Assembly (NCBI GenBank): GCA_030430575.1
Contig: JAUIKF010000028.1
Location: forward strand, 1 to 64,000
Length of the DNA: 64,000 nt
Direction: 5' to 3'
Source of the DNA: Bacteroidia bacterium
GTDB lineage: Bacteria > Bacteroidota > Bacteroidia > J057
A program made the position numbers and the translations under genes. Position 1 is the stretch's first letter, and every line of letters begins with the position of its first letter. The notes beneath the pieces are model-generated. The model had not been told where the DNA came from. It ran no database searches and saw only the letters and a list, made by a program, of their open reading frames with translations. Positions 5,058 to 55,218 of this stretch are shown one piece after another.

Positions 5058-5939
5058 TTGCCTCAAATATATGGTCACCCCTTTATCCAAAACTATTCTT
5101 CAGACGACTTTAACTCCACCAATCAAAACTTGGATGTCATCCAAGGCGACAACGGACTGATCTACGTCGCCAATTCTAGCGGCATATTGGAATTTGATGG
5201 GATTACGTGGCGGATCATTGCCATCCCTAATGGTCAATTTGTACGCAGTTTTGCCAAAGGAGTCGACGGTACTATCTATGTTGCGTGCCATGATCAGTTT
5301 GGGTTATTGGCTCCAGACTCGACAGGGACACTTGATTTTCACTCCTTGCTGTCCCATGTTCCTGAGGCTTATCTCGATTTCGAAGTCGTCTTGAAGGTCC
5401 ACGTCACCAGCCACGGAGTTTACTTCTGTGCAGACAAATACCTGTTTAGATGGGAGCCTGAAACCTCTACCCTCACGGTATTATGTCATGGGATCAATAC
5501 GAACCTAGCCTATGTCGTGTACGACGACCTCTACCTACGTCAATATGATGTAGGACTGGTCAAACTGGTTGGCGACAGCCTGGTCACCCTGCCCGGAGGA
5601 GAATTCTTTGCAAAAGATCGTATTCACCTGATGCTCCCTTTTGGTGGGAAACGGGGATTCAGCGAATCCGCCATCCTGATCGGACTGTCCACCAGGGGCT
5701 TGTATGTCTATGATCAAGGGGAAGTCATTCCTTTTGACATGCCGCCTGAGGATGCGGCCTATTTTCGGGAAAACGCGATTCTTGCAGGTCAGTTTCTCAG
5801 CAATGAAAGGCGGAGCTGTCATCATAGATACCCTTGGAAACATCAAAGAGACTGTGACGCGCTCTTCTGGCTTAATAGATGCCTTGGTGACCAATGTTTA
5901 CGAAGATCGCCAAGGGACGATCTGGATGAGTCTATATGA
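5058..5939 (+). CDS. N-terminal propeller fragment of the broken kinase
   Basis: An open frame from a TTG at 5058, ten bases after the TAG that cuts off the signal peptide. It encodes the first propeller blades (NGLIYVANSSGILEFDG, a typical two-component propeller repeat). After about 5800 the frame leaves the homologous sequence and becomes arginine/cysteine-rich nonsense up to 5939. Without the signal peptide it would not reach the periplasm. It is listed because a gene caller would report it; it is probably not functional. Confidence 0.35.
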   Translation: MPQIYGHPFIQNYSSDDFNSTNQNLDVIQGDNGLIYVANSSGILEFDGITWRIIAIPNGQFVRSFAKGVDGTIYVACHDQFGLLAPDSTGTLDFHSLLSHVPEAYLDFEVVLKVHVTSHGVYFCADKYLFRWEPETSTLTVLCHGINTNLAYVVYDDLYLRQYDVGLVKLVGDSLVTLPGGEFFAKDRIHLMLPFGGKRGFSESAILIGLSTRGLYVYDQGEVIPFDMPPEDAAYFRENAILAGQFLSNERRSCHHRYPWKHQRDCDALFWLNRCLGDQCLRRSPRDDLDESI

Positions 5940-6639
5940 TGGGCTTGCACGTGCGGAGATAGCTTCTCCTTTTCGGCTCTTTACAACTACCAATGGCCTT
6001 GAAGTGGACCTGAACAGTGTAGCCATTTATCGAGGAGAACTATATATTGGAGGCCCAGAAGGTGTGTTCCGACTTACCCCTAGTGGTACGCCGCTCGTCA
6101 AAGACGAATTCACTCCGGTGAAAGGCCTAAATCAACAATTGTTCGATATTGTGGAGGTAGAAGGTGACCTCCTTGCCGCCATGTTTACCGGTGTCTATCG
6201 CATATCAGGAGACCAAATAGAAGAGCTGGTCCCTCGGCAGACCCTTGCCTTGTATCCCTCCTCCTTTCATCCTGAAATATTATATGTGGGCCTTATCGGC
6301 GGTGTCATGGTGATGAAAAAGTTTCCTGTAGGATGGCGGAAATTGGGGACGATCCCTGGGACAAAAGGAGAAGTCCGAACCATTGTAGAGACGGCGGCAG
6401 GGGAACTCTGGGCGGGCTTTGAGGATGGTTTTAGTCATATTTACCTCGATACTGCAGCCTTATGGGAGATCACTTCGTCTCCGACCTCCCCCCAACTCCC
6501 TGCTCACGTCACTCATTATGAAGAGTCAGATGGGAAACAGCATGCAATGAGTTATGTCTTCTCCATCAATAAACAAGTGGTGCTTGATTCTCCTTTGGGC
6601 AAATTTGTATACGACTCCACCAAGAAGGATATCCTGTGA
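5704..6639 (+). CDS. middle propeller fragment of the broken kinase
   Basis: This frame takes over the propeller from about 5800 (MKGGAVIIDTLGNIKE, then VTNVYEDRQGTIWMSLYDG, a classic blade) and runs to the in-frame TGA at 6637. The first 35 codons from 5704 are out-of-frame shadow of the preceding blade. The same frame continues beyond the TGA directly into the 6715-8214 part, which shows that this stop is a nonsense lesion and not a gene boundary. Confidence 0.35.
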   Translation: MSMIKGKSFLLTCRLRMRPIFGKTRFLQVSFSAMKGGAVIIDTLGNIKETVTRSSGLIDALVTNVYEDRQGTIWMSLYDGLARAEIASPFRLFTTTNGLEVDLNSVAIYRGELYIGGPEGVFRLTPSGTPLVKDEFTPVKGLNQQLFDIVEVEGDLLAAMFTGVYRISGDQIEELVPRQTLALYPSSFHPEILYVGLIGGVMVMKKFPVGWRKLGTIPGTKGEVRTIVETAAGELWAGFEDGFSHIYLDTAALWEITSSPTSPQLPAHVTHYEESDGKQHAMSYVFSINKQVVLDSPLGKFVYDSTKKDIL

Positions 6640-6714
6640 GATACCCTTTTTGACAAAAAGTATCCCGCTTCTGACGCTGAACCTTTTTACCTTCATGAAG
6701 ATCCTCACGGGGAT

Positions 6715-8214
6715 GTGTGGATAGAATCTTTTATGGACAATGAAAAATTCATTGATTGGTTTTCCCTACAAAAAGATGGACGTTACAGTCGCCAATTTGC
6801 TCCTTTTTTTCATCTCTCAAGTATCGAAACCATCTACAAAATCTACGTGCATCCAGCGGAGCCTGCAACTGTCTGGTTTGCAGGGGATAATGGGCTTGTC
6901 CAATTTGACAAATCGCATACCTTTGATCCCAGCCCCAAGTTTCCGCCCTTGGTCAGGAAGGTATCGATCGCTCAAGGCGAGGTGATTTTTGGTGGAAGTC
7001 AGCAGGAGGGAAAATACCTGATTCCATATAAAGCCAATGAAATGACATTTGAATATGCCTTCCCAGCTTATGATGAGCACATAGCCAATGAATTTCAATA
7101 CCGCTTAGAAGGCTTTGAGGAACAATGGTCAAGCTGGTCTAAAGAAACGAAGAAGAGCTACACCAACCTGTCAGAAGGCACTTATCAATTTCGCGTAAGA
7201 GCAAAAAACATCTATAAAGAAACGGCAGAATCAGACGCTTTTACCTTCACGATTCTTCCCCCATGGTACAGGACCTGGTGGGCTTACCTGGGGTATATAG
7301 CGCTGCTGGTGGGAGGCGTGTATTTATTGGTTAAATGGCGTGTACGTCGGTTAAAGCAACAAAACCGTCAACTGGAACAAGTCGTGAAAGAACGCACATC
7401 GGAGGTTCTGGAAGCGCGGGAGCAATTGTTTATGCAGGAAAAAATGGCCTCGCTGGGCCAGATGACGGCAGGCGTAGCCCATGAGATCAAAAACCCCTTA
7501 AACTTTGTCAATAATTTCGCCCAAGGTTCCACTACCCTAGCTGCCGATCTGGAAGAAGAGCTTGCCCCTTTTTGGGAGAAATTGCCCAAGGAAGACGCCG
7601 AAATCATCCGCGAAATCCTTGAGGATATCAAGGAAAACGCCCAGTCCATCCACAAGCATGGATTAAGGGCCGATACCATCATCAATGGCATGATGGAGCA
7701 TGTCCAGCGCACCCCTGGTCAGCGCAGGCCCTATGACCTTAACCAATTGGTAGAGGACAATTTGCAATTTGCTTATCACGGAGGCAAACCAGGGCAAACT
7801 GAAGTTCGCATAGATATACGACGTCATTTAGATGCGTCTTTGCCGCCCGTCACAGTTATCCCCCAAGACATAGGGCGTGTATTCCTTAACCTATTTCAGA
7901 ATGCCCTGTATGCCTTGTACCAAAAGGCTCAGCAAGCTGACTCAGCCTATCAGCCCGTCCTGAAAGTAACCTCCTTGGCAACGGACATGCATGTCACCAT
8001 CAAGGTATGGGATAATGGAGTTGGCATTCCAGTTGATATTAAAGAAAGTATCTTTACCCCATTTTTTACCACAAAACCTACGGGAGAAGGAAACATTGGC
8101 TTAGGACTTTCTATTTGTTATGATATCATCGTATTGGGGCACAAAGGGACCTTGACAGTAGATAGCAAGGCGGGAGAGTTTACCGAATTTGTGGTTCAAT
8201 TGCCCTTGGGATAG
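6715..8214 (+). CDS. C-terminal part of the broken kinase: Y_Y_Y domain, membrane helix, HisKA, HATPase
   Basis: Up to 499 residues from a GTG at 6715, or from ATG 6733. It contains the end of the propeller, a Y_Y_Y domain (YRLEGFEEQWSSWSKETKKS, then LSEGTYQFRVRAKN), a single membrane helix, a coiled coil, H-box AHEIKNPLNF and the ATPase G-boxes. The kinase module itself looks intact. If translated from an internal start it would lack a signal peptide and most of the sensor, though the membrane helix could still insert. It ends 28 bp before the next regulator and would be its natural phosphodonor. Confidence 0.5.
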   Translation: MWIESFMDNEKFIDWFSLQKDGRYSRQFAPFFHLSSIETIYKIYVHPAEPATVWFAGDNGLVQFDKSHTFDPSPKFPPLVRKVSIAQGEVIFGGSQQEGKYLIPYKANEMTFEYAFPAYDEHIANEFQYRLEGFEEQWSSWSKETKKSYTNLSEGTYQFRVRAKNIYKETAESDAFTFTILPPWYRTWWAYLGYIALLVGGVYLLVKWRVRRLKQQNRQLEQVVKERTSEVLEAREQLFMQEKMASLGQMTAGVAHEIKNPLNFVNNFAQGSTTLAADLEEELAPFWEKLPKEDAEIIREILEDIKENAQSIHKHGLRADTIINGMMEHVQRTPGQRRPYDLNQLVEDNLQFAYHGGKPGQTEVRIDIRRHLDASLPPVTVIPQDIGRVFLNLFQNALYALYQKAQQADSAYQPVLKVTSLATDMHVTIKVWDNGVGIPVDIKESIFTPFFTTKPTGEGNIGLGLSICYDIIVLGHKGTLTVDSKAGEFTEFVVQLPLG

Positions 8215-8242: not shown

Positions 8243-10363
8243 ATGTCTACCAGGATTTTAATCGTAGATGATGAACCAGAAATGGAGCGCTTGATGCGCC
8301 AGCAATTTCGGCGAAAAATCCGGAAAGGGGAATACGAATGCCTTTATGCAAGCAATGGGGAGGAGGCATTAAAGGCCCTACATGTCCAGGAGGAAATAGA
8401 CATCATCCTGTGTGACATCAATATGCCGATCATGGATGGGCTTACCTTCATCTCTCGCCTGCGCGAGATGTCCATCTTCGCCAAGGCCATCATGGTCTCT
8501 GCTTATGGGAATATGGACAATATCCGCAAGGCGATGAACCAAGGAGCTTTTGACTTTGTCGTAAAACCCATTGACTTCATCGATCTGGAAACGACTATTC
8601 AGAAGGCGATGGTGGCAGTGAACCAGCATCGTGAGGCAGTAGAGACCACCCAGAAGCTGGCACATACCAAACAGGAATTGTCTGATGCAGAGGGACGAGA
8701 AGCGCATTTGCTGGAATTGGATAAATTAAAAAGTCGTTTTTTTACCCAAATTTCTCATGAATTCCGGACCCCGCTGACTGTCATCCTTGGAATGGCAGAT
8801 CAGATCAAACACAATCCCGACAAGTGGCATGCCCGCGGCCTTTCCCTGATACGCCACAACGGAAACACCTTACTCGACCTGGTCAATCAGCTCCTCGACC
8901 TTCGCAAGTTAGAGTCAGGCAATATGACTGCAAATTATATAAACGGGGACATTATCGTCTATTTGCGATACATTCTAGGGTCTTTCGAGACCTTAGCAGA
9001 GATAAAAGGGATTGACCTTTCCTTTGGTTCTGAGGTCCCCCAGGTTGACATGGATTATGACCCTGATAAGCTGCTGCGTATCGTTTCCAACTTATTGTCT
9101 AATGCGATCAAATTTACGCCAGAAGGCGGAAAGGTAAGGCTGATTGTCCGAAAGTCTGATAGTCTGACAGTAAAAAAAGAGAATCAACCTTCAGCCACTC
9201 AGACACTCAGACACTCAGACACTCAGACATTCAGACACTCAGACATTCAGACATTCGGACATTCATACCTCTTAATCGAGGTCTCCGATACCGGAATTGG
9301 AATTTCAGCCGATAAACTGCCTTATATTTTTGATTCATTTTATCAGGTAGATGACGCCGAGCCTCAACCGAGTGAAGGTACAGGCATTGGGCTTGCGTTG
9401 ACCTGGGAACTGGTCAGTCTGATGGAAGGCGGAATAGAGGTGACCAGTGATCTGGGAGAAGGGACTTCTTTTCAAGTATATTTGCCGATCAAGCAAGAGG
9501 CAAAGGCGCCAATAGGAGGGAATGATTGGGATGAAGCTCCCATAGACATGGCGGCTACTATCTCGAAAGTCACGACCAAAACCCTTCGTGCGTTAACAGA
9601 GGTGGCCGAAGAATTGCCCTCCCTGCTAATCATAGAAGATAATCCTGACGTGTCTCAATACCTCGTTGCGTGTCTGGAAGGACATTATACTTTATGGACC
9701 GCTGCAGATGGGCAGGAAGGTGTGGAAATGGCATTTGAGCATATACCCGACTTGATTGTAAGCGACGTGATGATGCCCAGGAAAAATGGAATTGAGGTGT
9801 GTGACATATTAAAAAGGGACGAACGGACCAGCCATATCCCTATCGTATTGCTCACGGCAAAGGCAGATCGTGATTCCAGAATCGAGGGCTTCACACATGG
9901 GGCAGATGCCTATCTGCCCAAACCCTTTGACCAGCAGGAACTGCTGGTGAGGCTGGATCAATTGCTGGCCATGAGGCAGCGCCTTCAGCAGCGGTACCTA
10001 ACCGCTGAGATTGAGGAAGCGCCAGGAGATGAGGGAACTCGCATGGAAGATGCTTTTATACAAAAAGTCCAATCCACCCTTGACCAACATCTACTGGATA
10101 CCTCATTCGGTATCCCCGAACTCTGTCGAGCCATCGGCATGAGCAGGAGTCAGCTCCACCAAAAGCTCAAGGCCCTTACTGGGCGCTCTACCTCCCACTA
10201 CATCCGCTTCCTGCGCCTCTCCAAGGCCCAGGATCTGCTCCTTCATTCAGACATGAATGTGTCAGAAGTAGCCTATACAGTCGGCTTCAGCGACCCCAAG
10301 TATTTTTCCAGAACCTATGCCCAAGAGTTCGGGGTTCCGCCTTCTCAGGTGAAGGCGGAATAA
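8243..10363 (+). CDS. hybrid regulator: REC - HisKA - HATPase - REC - AraC HTH
   Basis: A 706-residue soluble hybrid two-component protein. Domain order: receiver (residues about 4-125, phospho-acceptor Asp58 in CDINMP), coiled-coil linker, HisKA with His172 in SHEFRTPLTVILGM, HATPase with SDTGIGIS and GTGIGLAL, second receiver (Asp508 in SDVMMPRKNG) and AraC-type DNA-binding domain (about 600-706, EVAYTVGFSDPKYFSRTYAQ). There is no membrane segment, so signals must arrive through the first receiver, most simply from the kinase encoded 28 bp upstream, which is broken. Residues about 302-340 are a low-complexity insertion (HSDTQTFRHSDIQTFGHS) encoded by a word array inside the ATPase domain. 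The C-terminal modules resemble those of the next regulator, suggesting duplication. Confidence 0.88.
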   Translation: MSTRILIVDDEPEMERLMRQQFRRKIRKGEYECLYASNGEEALKALHVQEEIDIILCDINMPIMDGLTFISRLREMSIFAKAIMVSAYGNMDNIRKAMNQGAFDFVVKPIDFIDLETTIQKAMVAVNQHREAVETTQKLAHTKQELSDAEGREAHLLELDKLKSRFFTQISHEFRTPLTVILGMADQIKHNPDKWHARGLSLIRHNGNTLLDLVNQLLDLRKLESGNMTANYINGDIIVYLRYILGSFETLAEIKGIDLSFGSEVPQVDMDYDPDKLLRIVSNLLSNAIKFTPEGGKVRLIVRKSDSLTVKKENQPSATQTLRHSDTQTFRHSDIQTFGHSYLLIEVSDTGIGISADKLPYIFDSFYQVDDAEPQPSEGTGIGLALTWELVSLMEGGIEVTSDLGEGTSFQVYLPIKQEAKAPIGGNDWDEAPIDMAATISKVTTKTLRALTEVAEELPSLLIIEDNPDVSQYLVACLEGHYTLWTAADGQEGVEMAFEHIPDLIVSDVMMPRKNGIEVCDILKRDERTSHIPIVLLTAKADRDSRIEGFTHGADAYLPKPFDQQELLVRLDQLLAMRQRLQQRYLTAEIEEAPGDEGTRMEDAFIQKVQSTLDQHLLDTSFGIPELCRAIGMSRSQLHQKLKALTGRSTSHYIRFLRLSKAQDLLLHSDMNVSEVAYTVGFSDPKYFSRTYAQEFGVPPSQVKAE
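9146..9260. repeat. TCAGAC word array with inverted arms, inside a kinase gene
   Basis: The left arm (9146-9170) contains three GTCYGA words. The right arm (9196-9260) contains about nine copies of their reverse complement TCAGAC, spaced as CACTCAGAC or CATTCAGAC. The whole array is in frame and lies in the HATPase domain between GGKVRLIV and the G1 motif SDTGIGI. It codes for threonine, histidine, serine and glutamine-rich sequence with no counterpart in normal kinases. Confidence 0.8.
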
Positions 10364-10365
10364 GT

Positions 10366-10440
10366 TTTAGGTTCTAGGCGCTAGGTTCTAGGTTGCTTTT
10401 TGACATAGAACATAGAACATAGAACATAGAACCTAGAACC
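10366..10440. repeat. GGTTCTAGG / ATAGAACAT word array, inverted arms, after the first hybrid regulator
   Basis: The left arm (10366-10394) has three GGTTCTAGG-type words. The right arm (10403-10440) has ACATAGAAC repeated four times, ending CCTAGAACC. It starts three bases after the stop of the regulator gene. The same word family occurs at 3859-3892 and, in frame, at 12663-12731. It can fold into an imperfect hairpin and may terminate the upstream transcript (inference). Confidence 0.7.
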
Positions 10441-10513: not shown

Positions 10514-13500
10514 ATGCAGCCATTCCTTCTATTTATCCTACAAGGTCATAAGATCGCCTTTTTGCGGTGTGGATTGCTGGTATTAGCAGGACTTCTCTTG
10601 AGAATGCCTGTAAATGCCCAGCAGGCTGTCGTGGATAGTCTTCAAGGGATCTTGTCAGCTACCGAGGAAGATACTACACGGATACGGTTAATGGGCGAAA
10701 TAGCAATGGCCTATCGCAATCACGACAAGGAAAGCGCCCTCCAAGTCATTCAGGAAGGGTTAGCGATGGCAGAAGAGGCTCAATATGGATGGGGTAAATA
10801 TTTCCTATCTGTCATCAAGGGAAAAATTTTCGCCTATTATACTGAAGCCGATAGCCAAATGGTAGCGATTCAACAAGCGGTAGAAACAGCCCGAAAATTG
10901 GAGGATGCCACCACGCTCATCCAGGGATTGATTGATTTGGGTAAAGCCCAAAATACCATCAACCAAAAGCAAGCATCGATTGCTACCTTGAAGGAGGCAT
11001 ATACCCTTGCTGTGGTAGCGGAATTGACTGACCTCCAGTTTGATGCCCTCAACCAGATGGGCAATGTCTACTCCTACCTTACCTTCTACGATTCAGCTGA
11101 CCAGATTTTCAACCAAGCCTTTACCCTCCAACAAAAACTCGGAAATAAACGGAACCAAGCAGGCATATTGATGAATGCGGGCAATAACGCAGCACGCTCC
11201 GCTGACCTAGAAAAGGCCTTAGCCTATTATGACCAATCTCGAACCATTTTACACGAAATAGACGACCAACAGCTAGAAGCCACAGTCTTTCGCATGATGG
11301 CCTATAGTGCTGATGTGAGCGGCAATTATCCCCTTTCCTTGTCGTACTATCAGCAAGCTCTTGCCCTTTATCGCGCATTAGCCAATAAGGAATCAATTGC
11401 TATCTGTTTGGAGAGTATCGGAGAAGTCTATTTATCCTTAAAAAATTACCCCAAAGCCATTTCTTTTTTTGAAAAAGGATATGAAGAATGGAAATCGTTA
11501 GGGTCAGGCGTAAGGCAAACGGATTTATCCATAAAAAAAGGGAGTATTCATCTGCTAAAAGAAGAATTTGAAACGGCACTTACCTATTTCATCCCGATTT
11601 ATGCTCAGAGGAAAGCAGCTGGTCTGACTTTTCATGCGAGGAACCTACATTGGGAAATTGGGACCTGCTATGAGAAATTGGATCAGCTAGACTCTGCTGA
11701 AGTCTATCTACAAAACCAACTGACCTTTGCCACACAATCCAATAATTTTATTTCTAAATCAAAAGCCTTAAAAGGCCTGGGCCATGTCTACCATAAGCGA
11801 GGAGATGACCAAAAAGCTTTAGCCTATTATAGTCAAGCCAAAGAAGCGGCTGTTTTTGGGGGGATAAAGGACCTGGAAATGGAGACTGATGATGCTTTGT
11901 ATCAAGTCTACAAAGGTCAAAAAGATTATGAGAATGCCTTAACCTACCTCGAAGCACATCGCCAGCTCAGGGACAGCTTCCTGAATGAAAGAATCATCAG
12001 TCAGTTCACATGGCTAGAGGCCAATCAAGAATTTGATGAAGAGAAGCAGCGACTCGCCTTCGAGCAAGGGCAGGAGATCGAGCGCGAGCGGTCCGTCCAG
12101 CGGATTTTTATGATAGCCTTGGGCGTAACTGTGGTATTTCTCCTGATGATCGGCTGGTTTTATTATGGCAAAAGGAAGGATAACAAAGAGATTTTAGCAC
12201 AAAAAAAGGTCGTAGAAGCACAAAAAATAAAACTCGAAGCGCTAGACCGCGAGAAGTCGCGCTTTTTCACCAATATCTCCCACGAATTCCGAACGCCCCT
12301 GACTGTCATTTCAGGCATGGCCGACTCGATCACCGGCCATGAAAAGGCCAAAAAGCTCATCCAGCGCAACACCCACAACCTCCTCAATCTGATCAACCAG
12401 ATCTTAGACCTCCGCAAACTCGAATCTGGCAACCTCCAGACAGAACTCATCCAAGACGATATTGTCCGCTACCTTCGCTATATCCTCGAATCCTTTCACT
12501 CGCTGGCAGAAGGCAAAAACATCGAACTCCGCTTCTCTGCCGACCCAGAATCCATCCTCATGGACTACGACGTCGAGAAGATGCTCCGCATCATCTCGAA
12601 TCTCTTGTCTAATGCGATTAAATTCACCCCCAAAGGAGGGCAAGTGAAACTTGAAGTATTAGAAGTTCTAAGTTCTAGGTTCTATGTTCTAGGTCAACAA
12701 CTTAAAACTCAGAACCTAAAACCTAAAACCTTGTCTTTGGCCGTCTCCGATACCGGCCGTGGCATCCCTGCGGACCAGTTGCCGCAGATCTTTGATCAGT
12801 TCTATCAAGTGGACAGCTCGTCTACTAGAGAGGGGGAAGGCACGGGCATTGGCCTTTCGCTTACGCATGAGCTGGTGAAGCTGCTAGGCGGGGAGATTTC
12901 AGTGGAAAGTGAATTGGGCAAAGGAAGTACTTTTACCCTTCATCTACCGATCACGCAGGAAGCTCCCCTAATAGCGGCAGATATCAGCCTGCCTCGCCCA
13001 GAAATTCTTCTCACAGAAGAAGCCTCACCGGTAGCACTCACCGAGTTGAAGGAAGGGGATCTGCCGACCCTCCTCCTCATTGAAGACAACGCCGATGTCG
13101 TCGAATACCTGGTGACCTGCTTGCAGGGCAGCTATGACCTGCTGGTAGCGCGTGATGGGCAGGAAGGCATAGAGACGGCGCTGGAAGAGGTACCAGACCT
13201 CATCATCAGTGATGTGATGATGCCGCGCAAGGACGGGTTGGAGGTGTGTGACACCTTGAAACAGGACCAGCGGACCAGCCACATTCCCATCATTTTGCTC
13301 ACTGCCAAGGCAGATGCCGACTCACGCATCAGCGGGCTGGAACGCGGCGCTGACGCTTACCTCTCCAAACCATTCAATAAGGCTGAGCTGCTGGTCCGTA
13401 TCCGCAAGCTCATCGAGCTGCGGCGCATGCTCCAAAGCCGCTATGCTGCCGCAGGTCCCCTTCCGCCCAGCGAAGACATCGCTGTCCAGCAGGAAGACGC

Positions 13501-13810
13501 TTTTATCCTGAAACTCCAGGAAATCGTGGCCGCTCACCTTGACGATGAGACCTTCAAGGTACCTCAACTCTCAGAAGCCATGGGCCTGAGCCGGTCTCAG
13601 ATTCATAGAAAGGTAACGGCCCTGACAGGACGATCTCTCACCCGCTACGTCCGCCTCCTACGTCTCCAGAAAGCCCAAGAGTTCCTCAAAACCACGGACC
13701 TTAATATGTCGGAAGTGGCCTATTCAGTGGGCTTTAGCTCTTTGAGTTATTTCTCGCGTAGCTTTACCGAGGAATTTGGGGTCGCGCCGAGTGAGGCGAG
13801 GGGGAAATGA
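10514..13810 (+). CDS. TPR-containing hybrid sensor kinase: TPR - TM - HisKA - HATPase - REC - AraC HTH
   Basis: A 1098-residue one-piece sensor and regulator. The N-terminus carries a hydrophobic export segment, then a long run of tetratricopeptide repeats (about residues 50-490, for example AISFFEKGYEEWKSLG and ALTYLEAHRQLRDSF), a membrane helix near 533-553 (IALGVTVVFLLMIGWFYYG), HisKA with His590 in SHEFRTPLTVISGM, HATPase (SDTGRGIP, GTGIGLSL), a receiver with Asp900 in SDVMMPRKDG, and an AraC domain (EVAYSVGFSSLSYFSRSF). The TPRs presumably face the periplasm and the DNA-binding domain the cytoplasm, so the membrane-bound protein would sense and regulate directly. Residues about 713-740 are a word-array insertion at the same point of the ATPase domain as in the upstream regulator. 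Confidence 0.88.
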   Translation: MQPFLLFILQGHKIAFLRCGLLVLAGLLLRMPVNAQQAVVDSLQGILSATEEDTTRIRLMGEIAMAYRNHDKESALQVIQEGLAMAEEAQYGWGKYFLSVIKGKIFAYYTEADSQMVAIQQAVETARKLEDATTLIQGLIDLGKAQNTINQKQASIATLKEAYTLAVVAELTDLQFDALNQMGNVYSYLTFYDSADQIFNQAFTLQQKLGNKRNQAGILMNAGNNAARSADLEKALAYYDQSRTILHEIDDQQLEATVFRMMAYSADVSGNYPLSLSYYQQALALYRALANKESIAICLESIGEVYLSLKNYPKAISFFEKGYEEWKSLGSGVRQTDLSIKKGSIHLLKEEFETALTYFIPIYAQRKAAGLTFHARNLHWEIGTCYEKLDQLDSAEVYLQNQLTFATQSNNFISKSKALKGLGHVYHKRGDDQKALAYYSQAKEAAVFGGIKDLEMETDDALYQVYKGQKDYENALTYLEAHRQLRDSFLNERIISQFTWLEANQEFDEEKQRLAFEQGQEIERERSVQRIFMIALGVTVVFLLMIGWFYYGKRKDNKEILAQKKVVEAQKIKLEALDREKSRFFTNISHEFRTPLTVISGMADSITGHEKAKKLIQRNTHNLLNLINQILDLRKLESGNLQTELIQDDIVRYLRYILESFHSLAEGKNIELRFSADPESILMDYDVEKMLRIISNLLSNAIKFTPKGGQVKLEVLEVLSSRFYVLGQQLKTQNLKPKTLSLAVSDTGRGIPADQLPQIFDQFYQVDSSSTREGEGTGIGLSLTHELVKLLGGEISVESELGKGSTFTLHLPITQEAPLIAADISLPRPEILLTEEASPVALTELKEGDLPTLLLIEDNADVVEYLVTCLQGSYDLLVARDGQEGIETALEEVPDLIISDVMMPRKDGLEVCDTLKQDQRTSHIPIILLTAKADADSRISGLERGADAYLSKPFNKAELLVRIRKLIELRRMLQSRYAAAGPLPPSEDIAVQQEDAFILKLQEIVAAHLDDETFKVPQLSEAMGLSRSQIHRKVTALTGRSLTRYVRLLRLQKAQEFLKTTDLNMSEVAYSVGFSSLSYFSRSFTEEFGVAPSEARGK
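12663..12731. repeat. GTTCTAGGT / ACCTAAAAC word array with inverted arms, inside a kinase gene
   Basis: The left arm (12663-12695) has four TTCTAGGT-like words. The right arm (12708-12731) has AGAACCTAAAACCTAAAACC. It lies in frame between GGQVKLEV and the G1 motif SDTGRGI of the HATPase domain, exactly where the other hybrid kinase carries an array of a different word. The same word family stands outside genes at 10366-10440 and 3859-3892. Confidence 0.8.
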
Positions 13811-13890
13811 GAGAATGAGGGAATGATAGGATGATAGAATGGAATGAATAGATGAGTAGATGAGTAGATGAGTAGATGATTAAATGAGAA
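13801..13890. repeat. GATGAGTA / GAATGATAG word array, one arm
   Basis: A run of GAATGAGGGAATGATAGGAT-like words followed by four GATGAGTA units. The first word contains the TGA stop of the TPR hybrid kinase (13808-13810). No clear reverse arm follows before the GC-rich array that begins near 13938. The same words, with both arms, fill 26755-26884. Confidence 0.65.
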
Positions 13891-13937
13891 AATGAGGGTG
13901 AAGGTTTTTGGACTCGGAGCGAAGGCTTCCGGATTGG

Positions 13938-25170: not shown

Positions 25171-26754
25171 ATGAAAAAGTTCCTCCTCTTCCTTCTCTGC
25201 TCCATTGCCCTAATTCTCCATGCAGAAACCATCCCCAAGGGCAATTTCACCTTCACAGCTACGCCAGCCGAGGGGCAATATCCAACTCCACTGAAAGTGC
25301 AATTTCAGGCTGATGTGCCTGACGCAGTAGCCTATGAATGGGTCTTGAGCACCAAAACGAGTTTGACAGGAGCTACCGCTTCCTTCACCTATGAAAGTGC
25401 CAAGCAGATAGGCGCACATGGCATAACCCTGGTCGTGACGTATGCAGATGGCAGAAAGGAAAAGGTAGAGAAAGAGGCATTTGTCCAATACAAACCTATC
25501 ATCACCAACAATGCCATTGTATTTGGACTCTTGGCGGTCTTGCTGGGGCTGGTTTTCTATACCGCTGCGAGTGATAAGCCCATTTTCAAGAAATTCTATA
25601 CCGTGGTGCCGGTATTGCTGATGTGCTACTTGCTACCCGCTTTGCTGAGCTGGCCGCTAGGACTGACATCTGGAGATGATACCTTTAACGTCCTATATAA
25701 GCCGATGGCATCGCGCTACTTGCTGCCAGCGAGTTTGGTCTTGCTGTGTATCAGCATCGATTTCAAAGGCTTACTCAACCTCGGGCCCAAGGCCATCATC
25801 ATGTTCCTTGCAGGAACGGTGGGAATTGTGATAGGCGGGCCTATTGCCATTTTACTCGTATCCCTCGTCGCGCCTGAGATCACTGGTGGCACAGAAGAAC
25901 TCTGGCGTGGACTTTCTACCATCGCTGGTAGCTGGATCGGCGGTGGCGCCAACATGACCGCCATGAAGGAAATCTACGAAGTAGGCGATTCGCTCTTCTC
26001 TTCCATGGTGGTCATAGACGTTGTCGTGGCCAATATCTGGATGGCGTTTTTGCTCTATGGGGTGAGTATTTCGAAGAAAATAGACAAATGGTTCAAGGCA
26101 GATGCATCTGCCATCGATGACCTCAAGCAACGCGTAGAGAACTACGAAGCGACCGTCAATCGCAATCCTTCCACCAATGATTATTTTTATCTATTGGCCG
26201 TCGGTTTTGGGGCGACTGCCCTGGCACATTTTGGGGCAGATATCCTTGGACCAGCTATTTCTGGATACAACGATGCGAATAACGGTGTGCTTGATAGCAT
26301 GGGATTAAGTTCCCTAAAATCCTCTTTCTTCTGGCTCATTGTGATTGCCACCACCATTGGATTGGGACTTTCTTTCACCAAATTACGATCTCTAGGCGGC
26401 GCTGGAGCCTCCAAGATAGGCTCTGTTTTTATCTACATTCTCGTCGCCACCATCGGCCTCAAAATGAACATCGGCAAGGTATTCGACAACCTCGATGCCT
26501 TCGCTATCGGAATGGTCTGGATGATGGTGCATGTGATCGTCTTATTGTCTGTAGGCAAATTGATCAAAGCGCCGTTCTTCTTCACTGCCGTCGGCAGCCA
26601 GGCCAATGTGGGCGGCGCTGCCTCTGCCCCTGTCGTTGCAGCAGCCTTCAGTCCTGCCCTGGCGCCTGTAGGCGCCTTGATGGCGGTCTTGGGCTATGCC
26701 CTAGGGACGTATGGTGCGATTCTCTGTGCGATCTTGATGCAGGCAGCGTCATAA
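25171..26754 (+). CDS. DUF819 membrane protein with an N-terminal PKD-like domain
   Basis: A 527-residue protein. The ATG at 25171 gives signal peptide MKKFLLFLLCSIALILHAE. Residues about 20-110 form a PKD-like beta sandwich (FTATPAEGQYPTPLKVQFQA, then YEWVLSTKTS and VTYADGRKEKVEKEAFVQY). From about residue 118 there are about eleven membrane helices with the DUF819 signatures GSWIGGGANMTAMKE and GSQANVGGAASAPVVAAAFS; glycine-rich re-entrant loops of this kind resemble gluconate/arsenite-type carriers. DUF819 proteins (YjcL-like) are of unknown substrate. The extra periplasmic domain is unusual and may bind or gate the substrate (inference). Confidence 0.8.
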   Translation: MKKFLLFLLCSIALILHAETIPKGNFTFTATPAEGQYPTPLKVQFQADVPDAVAYEWVLSTKTSLTGATASFTYESAKQIGAHGITLVVTYADGRKEKVEKEAFVQYKPIITNNAIVFGLLAVLLGLVFYTAASDKPIFKKFYTVVPVLLMCYLLPALLSWPLGLTSGDDTFNVLYKPMASRYLLPASLVLLCISIDFKGLLNLGPKAIIMFLAGTVGIVIGGPIAILLVSLVAPEITGGTEELWRGLSTIAGSWIGGGANMTAMKEIYEVGDSLFSSMVVIDVVVANIWMAFLLYGVSISKKIDKWFKADASAIDDLKQRVENYEATVNRNPSTNDYFYLLAVGFGATALAHFGADILGPAISGYNDANNGVLDSMGLSSLKSSFFWLIVIATTIGLGLSFTKLRSLGGAGASKIGSVFIYILVATIGLKMNIGKVFDNLDAFAIGMVWMMVHVIVLLSVGKLIKAPFFFTAVGSQANVGGAASAPVVAAAFSPALAPVGALMAVLGYALGTYGAILCAILMQAAS

Positions 26755-26884
26755 GAAAATGAGAGAATGAATGGATGATAGAATGAGTGAATAATCGTGA
26801 CCGAGGGTCGATATATTTTATCATTTTTTCCCGAAATACAATCTATTATTCCCTCATTCTATCCTACTATCATTCACTCATCTC
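26755..26884. repeat. GAATGATAG word array, inverted arms, stop to stop
   Basis: The left arm (26757-26796) is AATGAGAGAATGAATGGATG-type sequence. The right arm (26845-26882) is ATTCCCTCATTCTATCCTAC-type sequence, its reverse complement. It fills the space between the stop of the DUF819 gene (26752-26754) and the stop of the convergent outer-membrane protein gene (26885-26887). The same words occur as a single arm at 13801-13890. Confidence 0.7.
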
Positions 26885-29800
26885 CTAAAACAGCGCCCGC
26901 ACCTGTACCCGCCCCGTGTGAATGACGGGTATCTCAGGCGAGGACCGTCCGTCATAGGTCAGGCTGAGTTCGACATTTTGCAGGATATAGTAGGTTAAAA
27001 ATACTTGCCAAATGGCGTTGAAGCCAGGCCGCAGGCTTTCTGTCAGCTCATAGTCGGCGGCAAAGCTGGTTTCGCCCTGCTGCTGCACATTGACCAATTC
27101 TACCTTCGCAAAAATATTATTACCTCCCTTGAGGTTCCATTTGGTATCGATGAGGGCCTTGTGCATGAACACACGCGCATCCACGCGCAAACTGTCATTG
27201 GTATTATTTTTCGCCTTATACTCATAGCCCGTACTGAAGCGAAATTTACGGCTAAACTGGAAGCTGATACGGGGGCGCGTTTCAAAAAAATCAATGGCGT
27301 AATTGCGGGTACTGAATGCCTCGGCACGGCTAGACTTGTGGCCGAGCCTGCTCTCCACCTCGATCGTCTTCGACGCATCTAGGCTTAGGCGCTGGTTCGC
27401 GCCCCAATAGCGGAATCCGCGAAACTCGTCGCCTGTCGCAAGAAAAAGCTTGCCTTGGTTGTTTTGGTAGGTGAATCGCAGATCGCCCGTTTTGCTATTT
27501 TGAAAAAAACTGAGGTCTTGACGCACGTTAAAACTGGCGTCGAGCAAGGCCGAGTCCGCAAAAGGATTGGTGATATTGACCAAATAGGACGAGAAGGTAG
27601 AGCCCCGCTCTTTGCTCTGAGAGATACGGAAATTGCTGATCGCGCGCACATTGCGAATCGTCTCCTTCCAAGGATTTTTGCTTCGCTCAAAAAGCTGTTT
27701 TAAGTCCCAACGCACATTGCCTGTAAAGCTGACTCTGGTGGTGGGAAACAGTTCTTGGGTAGGGAAAAGGACCCGAATGAAGTTCGCTACCAGGGGATTG
27801 GGAGAAAGTTGAAACTCATCGATTTGCTGAATGCCGTCGTCGTTAAACAAAGAATCCAGCCAGACATATTCGCCTTGGCCAGGATTCACTTCTAGAAAGC
27901 GCACCTCCTTACGGGCCACGCGTTCTGAGCTGACTTCATAGAGGAAATTGGCATAGAGCAATCGATTTTTGGCGGAATAGGTGGACTGCACATTGGCGTT
28001 GAGGACGCGTGTGTCCGTCAAACCCGTCACCGCAAAAGCGGAGTCCTGTAGGTCAAACACGCGCAGCGACGTCGTCGCTTGCAGGTCGAGGCGGCTACTT
28101 GGGCGGTATTGGGTGCGGGCAAAATAGGTCACCGCCTCAAATTTGTCGCGCTCCGCGCCGTCAAAGAACTGCCGCTCTTTGCGGTAGTTGAGAGAGAGGT
28201 CGTAGGACCATTTTTTCTTACCTGCGGACCGCAGGTAGGGCGTCAGGTCCACAAAGCTAAACGAGCCACTCGCCAAGGAATCATGGCGCATCTCCTCCCG
28301 ATCTTCGATCCAGATCTCTACGCCAGGGCGAACGTGTTTATTTATCATATAAAAAATGTCTCCCTCATGGCGTATCCAGCGCGTTAGCCGGCGCAGGCTA
28401 TCATCTTCCGTGGTGATATGGGTCAAGGTATAATCACCTTTGAGGAATTTGGGAAGCTGGCTATTGAGGTGGTAAACCTGGCGGAATGCCTTGCGACCAG
28501 GGCCTGCCAGGCGGATGCCCGTCTCTGTGTCCATGCTCAACCGACGCTTGTAATCAAGCTTAGTTTTGGCACTGATGATCTGCTCTTGGGTGCGCTCTGT
28601 CGCCGTTGCCAGGTCCCAGACCCGGTTGTATTCAGCCTTATAGACCCGATCCAGGTTTTGATAGCGAATGCCCACCCATTGGTGACTTACGTCAACGCCT
28701 AGTCGAATAGAATCCGAAAGCTTCACATCCTTCACGGCCAAGCCTGTGCGATTGGCGAAGCCCGTATTGTCATCATCATTCAGGGGAGAAAGGCGGTTGC
28801 GGTCTTCACTGCTGATGGCTGTTTCAGAATAAACCCGCAATTTGTCATTTATCTGATATTGCACATTCGCATCCGCCACCTGCAATAAGCGCGGCAAAGC
28901 CCACTGCCGCACGGGTGCATAATCGCCTCGCATTTGACCTGTGATCGTATCTCTCCCCACCCATACATAGACATTGGCATTGCTCCCTGACTGATCGCGG
29001 ATGTATTCTCCATTCCCCGCTCCCACAAAGCTAAAAAACACCTGATAGATCGCTTGTTCAGGATCGCGCGACAAGACAAATCGTTGATAAACTTGTCCGC
29101 CCAGCAGCGTATCTCGACGCGCATAGCGCGTCTCATCAGGGTCATAGCCCACCTTCACCGCTCCACTCGTCACGGCCAAGCCTGTGTCGTCTCCCGCCCC
29201 AGCCAAGCTGTCGCGGACTTGGTTATAGGCCACCTCGTTTTCGAGGGGGGCATTGGCATTGTCGGCATCGCGGCCGTAGGAAGCGCGAATGGTGAGGCGG
29301 TCGTCGAGCAGCTTCTGCTCTACCTGTCCAAAGATCAGCGATCGATTGAAATTGAAGTCAGCATATTCGAAGTCGATGACGATACGGGTGGCAGCAGTGA
29401 TGACGTGCTTAGCGGTAAAAAAGACCTCGGCGGTGTTGTAATTGATGATGTAATCGGCGTTTTCGCCACGCTGGAGGGGTTTCCCGTTGAGGTAGACCTT
29501 TTCACTTCCCGCCAAGACGGTGAAGAAGCGTTCGTTGTTTTGGCCGGAGAGTCGGTAGGGCCCTGAGACCCCCTCGATCCCATCGAGGCTATTGGTATGG
29601 AATCTGCCTTTGGCGACAGCACCGCTCACGCTGGCTTTGGTCTGCTCGGTGTCCATGGCGAACTTCATGCCTTGGACGTTTCGGTAGAAATTGGCGAAAT
29701 AGGTGCCCTTATGTTCTACTTCGTAGTCGCCGACGGTGATGCTGTAAGCGTCTTTGGAGAGTTGGATAAAGATTTTGTCAAAATCGGAGATTTGTTGGGT

Positions 29801-31249: not shown

Positions 31250-31300
31250 AATTTTGCCCTGTAGAGATGTTGGAATCCAACGTCTCTACAGGGCAAAATT
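31250..31300. repeat. 51-nt palindrome of the GTAGAGACGTTGG family
   Basis: AATTTTGCCCTGTAGAGATG and its complement form a 24-bp stem around GGAATCC, with one G-T mismatch. A partial copy (GTAGAGGCGTAGGAATCC) lies just upstream at 31231-31248. It stands between the divergent cyclophilin and C25-like genes, so it is not a terminator for either; it may be an operator or simply a dispersed repeat. Confidence 0.7.
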
Positions 31301-31374
31301 TTGGGATGGAATGACATCCCCTTTTTGGGGAAATTTGGAAACCGACATTTTATCCACCCTCAATTCCCCAAGCA

Positions 31375-54897: not shown

Positions 54898-55218
54898 AAG
54901 AGAAGTTCAATTGTTCAACTAAGGAAAGTTCAAGCGTGCAACTAAGATAGGTTCAACTCGTTCAAGCGTTCAACTCGTTCAATTGTTTTAAGAGAAAGCA
55001 ATAAGGCTTGAACCTTTGAACCTAATTGAACCTTTGAACCTTTGAACCTTTTTGCGCCTGCAAATATAGCATTTTCTTTATTGGCTCGTTACTCCTAAGT
55101 TTGTACCTGTAAGGAATTTTTACTGGATAAATTGATTGATTTTTTTGTAAGAAAACCTATTTACTATGGACTATCAATCAAAGTTGTTTCCTAGAACACC
55201 CTAAAACCAACAAATCTT
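54898..55218. other. 321-bp divergent gap between lipA and a lipoprotein gene
   Basis: The left half is the GTTCAA/TTGAAC inverted word array (54904-55050). On the right, TAAGTTTG at 55096-55103 matches the TAnnTTTG box on the plus strand and may be the promoter of the lipoprotein gene, giving a leader of about 110 bases. TTGATTGATT words and a short AT-rich stretch follow. No gene seen. Confidence 0.55.
54904..55050. repeat. GTTCAA / TTGAAC word array with inverted arms
   Basis: The left arm (54904-54985) has nine GTTCAA words in phrases such as CGTTCAAGCGTTCAACTCG. The right arm (55007-55050) has TTGAACC repeated five times (CTTTGAACCTTTGAACC). The 20-base centre is AGAGAAAGCAATAAGG-like. 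It begins just upstream of the lipA start, so unlike most arrays here it sits at a 5' end. Confidence 0.7.

Follow-up and report, generated by a model that had tools for sequence, protein, structure and literature searches.

Palindromic word repeats recur in frame at one turn of the ATPase domain in hybrid histidine kinases of a Bacteroidia bacterium

Results

Two neighbouring hybrid kinases with different word hairpins

Genes for two hybrid histidine kinases lie side by side in a contig of a Bacteroidia bacterium (GenBank assembly GCA_030430575.1, contig JAUIKF010000028.1), whose first 64,000 nucleotides were analysed as a whole and are called the window here. Each gene carries an in-frame hairpin composed of short repeated words, and another word hairpin stands between the two genes:

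8243..10363, + strand: hybrid histidine kinase 1, 706 aa, with two Response_reg domains, HisKA, HATPase_c and HTH_18 (ORF, Pfam matches)
9141..9265, + strand: in-frame word hairpin GTCTGA...TCAGAC(AC) of kinase 1, at the turn equivalent to the kinase 2 site, with a long right arm of 8-mers (inverted repeat, open frame, RNA fold)
10364..10439, no strand assigned: intergenic GTTCTAG hairpin, starting directly after the stop codon of kinase 1 (inverted repeat, RNA fold)
10514..13810, + strand: hybrid histidine kinase 2, 1098 aa, with TPR repeats, HisKA, HATPase_c, Response_reg and HTH_18 (ORF, Pfam matches)
12599..12766, + strand: span of kinase 2 from the N box (NLLSNAIKFTP) to the D box (VSDTGRGI), containing the insert (motif search)
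12665..12729, + strand: in-frame word hairpin GTTCTARG...CYTARAAC in the HATPase_c turn of kinase 2 (inverted repeat, open frame, RNA fold)

Both kinases exceed the Pfam cut-offs for HisKA, HATPase_c, Response_reg and HTH_18 in a single chain; the second receiver of kinase 1 would be positioned between HATPase_c and HTH_18. We take the two proteins to be HTCS-like, i.e. hybrid two-component sensors with AraC-type output. Upstream of kinase 1, a gene for a Y_Y_Y-type sensor kinase (5058-8214) looks broken: a single 1155-aa ORF in another genome of the same genus is matched by no fewer than two ORFs here, 5680-6636 and 6640-8211, and a third ORF precedes both.

The arms of the kinase 2 hairpin (12665-12694 and 12700-12729) are 30 nt long, 77% complementary and separated by a 5 nt spacer, and the hairpin is placed immediately ahead of SDTGRGI. 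Its words are degenerate, with about four tandem heptamers in the left arm and a more mutated right arm, and the array is thus imperfect. The predicted RNA fold of 12660-12735 has an energy of -18.5 kcal/mol (z -3.35), equalled by one of 200 shuffles. The hairpin of kinase 1 reaches a z of -3.45 and the intergenic one -5.60. An earlier note on this DNA had described a word array ahead of SDTGRGI in kinase 2 and a different array at the equivalent site of kinase 1, and both are confirmed here as hairpins.

The insert of kinase 2 lies in a segment which, in HATPase_c structures, forms the turn of a beta hairpin. About 18 residues are missing at the insert point in solved histidine kinases, as judged from the two best PDB alignments among those listed. 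In an AlphaFold2 model built from three sequences, which was poor (mean pLDDT 48.5) and consulted for strand order only, strands 134-138 and 165-169 flank the insert. The N and D box motifs are 41 aa apart in kinase 2. In the spans read from the window's genome the distance is 22-33 residues without insert and 36-57 with insert, one 109-aa span (L048) being left aside as an artefact of the regular expression and spans lacking a nearby H box or G2 box being excluded.

Inserts at the same turn in other kinases

The survey covered the window's genome (G000, 8.16 Mb) and one other genome of the genus, from a sister species (G001). G000 has 92 HATPase_c matches, 79 of which were read. A clear hairpin at the turn between N and D boxes, defined by an inverted-repeat score of at least 13 together with words, is present in 8 of the 79. 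In three further kinases (C9:110799, C62:75968 and C46:26207) the words are eroded or the repeat is a different dispersed one, which brings the carriers to 11 of 79. The remaining 68 domains have no clear hairpin and at most two matches of any one of the three word classes counted. The inverted-repeat score alone cannot separate carriers, because a score of 12 was also seen in one wordless kinase. Words and span length together do separate them, except for five non-carrier spans that are 360-447 nt long for other reasons; C70:20816 and C45:51323, both of them long, were classed as non-carriers from their inverted-repeat score and the three word classes alone.

The carriers of G000 are divided among several words: GTTCTAG in four kinases, GTCTGAAC in three, GTTCAGG in one clear and one doubtful case, and two others. 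The turn of one kinase (L054, C46:26207-26602) contains a TTCGACTCCGCTCAGGACAAG stretch, presumably a dispersed repeat of another kind. In G001, where 14 spans were read from 87 HATPase hits (three long ones, at C11:101294, C60:76521 and C14:86598, lie outside this reading), four spans hold arrays, namely three GCAGTTG hairpins and a one-armed AAACCCA array. Eight genomes at greater distance contributed another 28 spans, which brings the spans from other genomes to 42. The five longest or near-longest of these 28, kinase loops from two other genera, have no words at the DNA level.

The frame is open in all 15 carriers of the two genomes. Seven of them lie on contig C9, two in the window and three on contig C37 of G001, and the close relatives C28 and G001:C19 have short loops. 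The proposal that different words occupy one protein site, and that this site is preferred, is supported by 11 of 79 HATPase domains in G000 and 4 of 14 spans in G001. The survey of hybrid kinases that the earlier note had called for finds inserts in both the genome and its congener, all 15 in open frames, contrary to the alternative raised there that no other hybrid kinase of the clade would have them and that these two would be assembly errors.

Word families across the genomes

Runs of three GTTYTA words number 498 in G000 and runs of three GTCYGA words 121, both being absent from G001, G003 and G005. Conversely, 316 three-word GCAGT runs occur in G001 and none in G000, G003 and G005. Overlapping matches were counted separately in these figures, and controls with backwards patterns gave 0, 1 and 3. 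Each of the three tested words is thus restricted to one of the two species. AAAACCC arrays, whose word is that of one G001 kinase, are found in both genomes, three in each in the stretches read. Tandem word arrays number 59 in 1.22 Mb of real sequence versus none in 0.62 Mb shuffled in 300-base blocks.

A list of 130 word hairpins was compiled from 1.74 Mb of distinct G000 sequence (21% of the genome), two of them being too close to an edge for testing. The sequence consisted of 60 stretches picked around or between HATPase hits and 40 picked around word arrays, and densities are accordingly not those of random sequence. The arms are 18-55 nt long (the filter required at least 16), the median element length is 86 (n=130), and GTTYTA stands in the first arm of every one of the 31 GTTCTAG hairpins counted. 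Further arrays or hairpins with other words are seen outside the kinases of the window, at 1008-1089, 1922-1981, 13844-13896, 26754-26886 and 55008-55051. Palindromes of a different kind, GTAGAGACG...CGTCTCTAC and its variants, are likewise dispersed and occur at 31250-31301 of the window and at C2:94102 and C30:4998-5045 of the same genome; the last of these is read in frame within the sensor region of a kinase of 1085 aa.

With genes approximated by the longest ORFs, the elements in gaps lie close to stop codons. A stop codon is found within 30 nt of 73 of 93 gap elements, whereas 500 random placements gave 56 on average and never more than 70; the corresponding figure on the start side is 35 of 79 versus a mean of 41. 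Divergent gaps hold only 8 of 101 elements although they account for about 23% of gap bases, and 29 of the 130 elements lie in no gap of at least 80 nt. A T run behind the hairpin is not enriched (8 of 73 have TTTT no more than 12 nt away, against a background of 9.3%), on which ground intrinsic terminators were rejected as an account of the intergenic copies. Being near stops and avoiding divergent gaps, yet without a T run, the word hairpins are unlike ordinary intrinsic terminators.

Reading frames open for 150 nt on both sides are rare among the listed hairpins (9 of 130), and seven of these nine are in the kinase turn. The other two are the linker of a FolC-like fusion (C63:39529) and part of a doubtful 147-aa ORF; a search by word added one more, located ahead of what is probably a start codon. 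In the fusion (L215, C63:39529-39663) the hairpin is made of GTCTGA words and links what appear, as named by eye, to be two FolC-like domains joined end to end in a protein of 918 aa. A rough binomial calculation for seven of eight open-frame hairpins in the turn, which assumes a coding share of 0.88 and a loop length of 66 and ignores common ancestry, gives 4e-17, a value that overstates the case because the sample was chosen partly around kinases. Some open frame exists in 12 of 43 GTTCTAG, 10 of 10 GTCTGAAC and 5 of 9 GTTCAGG elements. Open frames thus carry little weight for the latter two families, most elements of which are open, and are a strong filter for GTTCTAG only.

Relatives of the kinase 2 insert

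The intergenic copy between the two kinases belongs to the GTTCTAG family like the kinase 2 insert, yet it is not the nearest relative of that insert. Among the 43 GTTCTAG elements of the stretches read, a list that covers 1.74 of 8.16 Mb and part of the kinase tracts, the closest to the insert (itself apart) is C38:107927 with a score of 53.4. The local copy (10364-10440) scores 38.8 and is the seventh closest of the 42 others, and the tract of kinase C9:42396 scores above it, at 46.1. A whole-genome search, which scored 40 of its 267 candidates, likewise had C38:107927 as the top match once three kinases are set aside, and the matches it listed did not include the local copy. The local copy was therefore rejected as donor, C38:107927 and the C9:42396 tract being closer, and the suggestion that the word had been copied locally from 10366-10440 is not supported in the 21% of the genome read: the genome holds 498 three-word GTTYTA runs, and the local copy ranks seventh among the elements compared.

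Words and the kinase tree

A quick tree was built from 72 kinase cores with the loop omitted (limited to spans of up to 100 aa in which both boxes were present; SH-aLRT support only). On it, the four GTTCTAG kinases need four changes, the three GTCTGAAC kinases three and the three GCAGTTG kinases three, all of them forced by starred branches. The words do not follow the kinase tree. The bearing of any insert needs seven changes, at least four of which are forced. Carriers are nevertheless clustered, since shuffled labels need 13.8 changes on average and none of 500 shuffles was as low as seven; an occupied or receptive loop may thus be partly inherited.

Kinase 1 of the window is sister to G001:C37:13971 in separate trees of the halves before and after the insert (support 100/99 and 95/93). 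The genes upstream of the two kinases are best matches, with 57.6% identity over 524 residues. These syntenic orthologues have unlike words in the turn. Unlike words are also seen in the paralogue pairs C9:47310/C9:55598 and C9:78648/C9:110799, two of these sequences being cut short in the downstream half. Unlike words in an orthologous pair fit the earlier idea that the word was exchanged after duplication, and fit separate arrivals equally well.

Tracts that share a word were compared with their flanks. Identity is 0.90-0.94 in the tract versus 0.67-0.77 in the flanks for three GCAGTTG kinase pairs, 0.84-0.89 versus 0.68-0.75 for three GTCTGAAC pairs, and 0.74-0.83 versus 0.66-0.77 for six GTTCTAG pairs, in one of which (C9:47310 with C9:101359) the tract is no more alike than the flanks. 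These gapped tract identities are inflated, as pairs with unlike words span 0.55-0.81. The GCAGTTG tracts look younger than the kinase duplications because they are more alike than their flanks.

Discussion

A proposed tolerant loop for palindromic repeats

We favour, with some reserve, the explanation that non-autonomous palindromic repeats, behaving much like REP elements or Rickettsia palindromic elements (RPEs), have been inserted or replaced repeatedly in one tolerant loop of these kinases. The kinase 2 insert would be one copy of a short repeat family whose arms consist of tandem words, mostly 7-mers or 8-mers, and which would normally settle in non-coding gaps close to stop codons. In this group of hybrid kinases, two beta strands connect the N box with the D box, and the turn between these strands may tolerate an in-frame insert because the insert merely lengthens an exposed turn, so that repeat copies would have survived there many times. 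Copies in the loop would also be replaced or re-acquired over time, so that paralogues and orthologues would come to carry the word family abundant in their own genome. Mobility of the repeats, tolerance of the loop and turnover of the words are the parts of this explanation that we infer. Y1_Tnp genes, which might encode a RAYT mobiliser, are few, with three matches in G000 and three in G001, one of them containing a stop. Several observations speak against the favoured explanation. The clustering of carriers may in part reflect an occupied loop passed on by descent, AAAACCC is shared by both genomes, so not every word is species-specific, and open frames carry little weight for two of the families. 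One of the six GTTCTAG pairs is no more alike in the tract than in the flanks, and neither filled and empty alleles within a species nor a target-site duplication was seen. Tolerance alone also leaves the scarcity of such inserts in other genes unexplained.

Perhaps the repeats insert everywhere and are seen only where they are harmless, with no replacement or copying between kinases, a possibility that we consider less likely. The 31 of 43 GTTCTAG elements without an open frame agree with it. So do the five long wordless loops in kinases of two other genera, which indicate that the loop tolerates length by itself. Against it stand the tracts of three distant G001 paralogues, which are 0.90-0.94 alike and have the linker in common, and the near absence of hairpins from other sampled genes although every GTCTGAAC element has an open frame.

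The insert could instead be kept as useful, the hairpin acting as mRNA structure or the longer peptide turn tuning the kinase, for example by translation pausing or by insulation between paralogues. The concentration of seven of nine open-frame hairpins in one loop of one gene group, with the rough binomial value given above, would suit such a selected function, as would the presence of inserts in two species and the fold z of about -3.4 for both window inserts. We consider it unlikely in view of the 68 of 79 HATPase domains without clear hairpin and of the short loops of the close relatives C28 and G001:C19. Some inserts are moreover eroded or one-armed, which implies that the hairpin is not kept.

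A bolder reading, to which we give still less credence, makes the turn a docking site where successive word families overwrite each other, pass between paralogues and either diversify the kinases or insulate them, protein evolution then being driven by tandem-word palindromes.

Very unlikely is the use of the insert as a recombination site for domain shuffling between kinases. The upstream half of kinase 2 does group with C28 and G001:C19 (94/91, below the level of a star) and its downstream half with C46 (99/97), but sliding identity reveals no sharp change at the insert, and shuffling at this point was rejected.

Slightly less credible again is a single ancestral insert, inherited through kinase duplication with its word diverging by mutation. 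Many carriers adjoin each other on C9, in the window and on C37 of G001, and they cluster on the tree, as inheritance would predict. Word length differs (7 or 8), however, the words match dispersed families of their own genome, and word changes are forced on starred branches. Inheritance with drifting words was accordingly rejected on the tree and on the one-species dispersed families, AAAACCC, present in both species, being the exception. Repeats can mislead assembly, but open frames in 15 of 15 carriers, with varied linkers and words and in two genomes, leave an assembly artefact practically without credit.

In-frame palindromic repeats are known from Rickettsia and from REPs, mostly scattered in unrelated genes. 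In the present case one loop of one domain gathers inserts in many paralogues, in two species and mostly with the words of each. The kinase loop inserts offer a natural test, open to counting, of the way in which repeat DNA turns into protein sequence and of whether one word repeat replaces another, and they draw attention to word hairpins as a class of element close to gene ends in this bacterial group.

Comparison with known systems

Literature searches brought up no publication that deals with such inserts in histidine kinases or with the word hairpins of this bacterial group. RPEs are about 150 bp long, encode a conserved peptide and lie in unrelated genes. The seven kinase inserts among the listed hairpins are like them in being palindromic repeats in open frames. 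They are unlike them in their length of 65-125 bp, in their differing words and in the concentration of the in-gene copies in one loop, in the 21% of the genome read. A review describes RPEs as palindromic repeats in frame within protein genes (PMC10969869).

REP elements are described as high-copy palindromes located mostly between tandem or convergent genes near stop codons, with some inside ORFs, with short stems of 5-13 bp, and with different REPs at about the same recB site in two Xanthomonas species (PMC3733652). Word hairpins resemble them in being high-copy, intergenic, near stop codons and rare between divergent genes. They differ in their arms of 18-55 nt made of tandem words, in the several word families per genome and in the recurrence in one loop of many paralogues. 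Nor does the GTTCTAG family have a constant tag, GTAG or GTGG being at an end in 4 of 31 hairpins and CGTC in none of 31. The elements were filed neither as REPs nor as RPEs, because the REP tags (in the GTTCTAG family) and the short stem do not apply to them, nor, in the part of the genome read, does the spread over unrelated genes.

The TAACTGA heptamer arrays, found also in some Bacteroidetes, are likewise tandem 7-mers in intergenic DNA with few copies inside ORFs; they are direct repeats, and in the genome chiefly examined most are described as lying immediately ahead of start codons (PMC4679880). Word hairpins share with them the dispersed tandem words in intergenic DNA and the few copies inside ORFs, but are arranged as inverted pairs of arrays close to stop codons and comprise several words in each genome. 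PARCEL elements are coding repeats with dyad symmetry that are thought to be mobile and encode a 25-residue amphipathic motif, often in membrane-targeted proteins (PMC2996958). Compared by description, coding repeats with dyad symmetry are common to PARCEL and the kinase inserts, and a hairpin in the kinase loop is not part of PARCEL. The kinases themselves are like HTCS-like sensors in combining HisKA, HATPase_c, Response_reg and HTH_18 in one protein, and differ from them in the repeat hairpin of the ATPase turn and, in the case of kinase 1, in beginning with a receiver domain.
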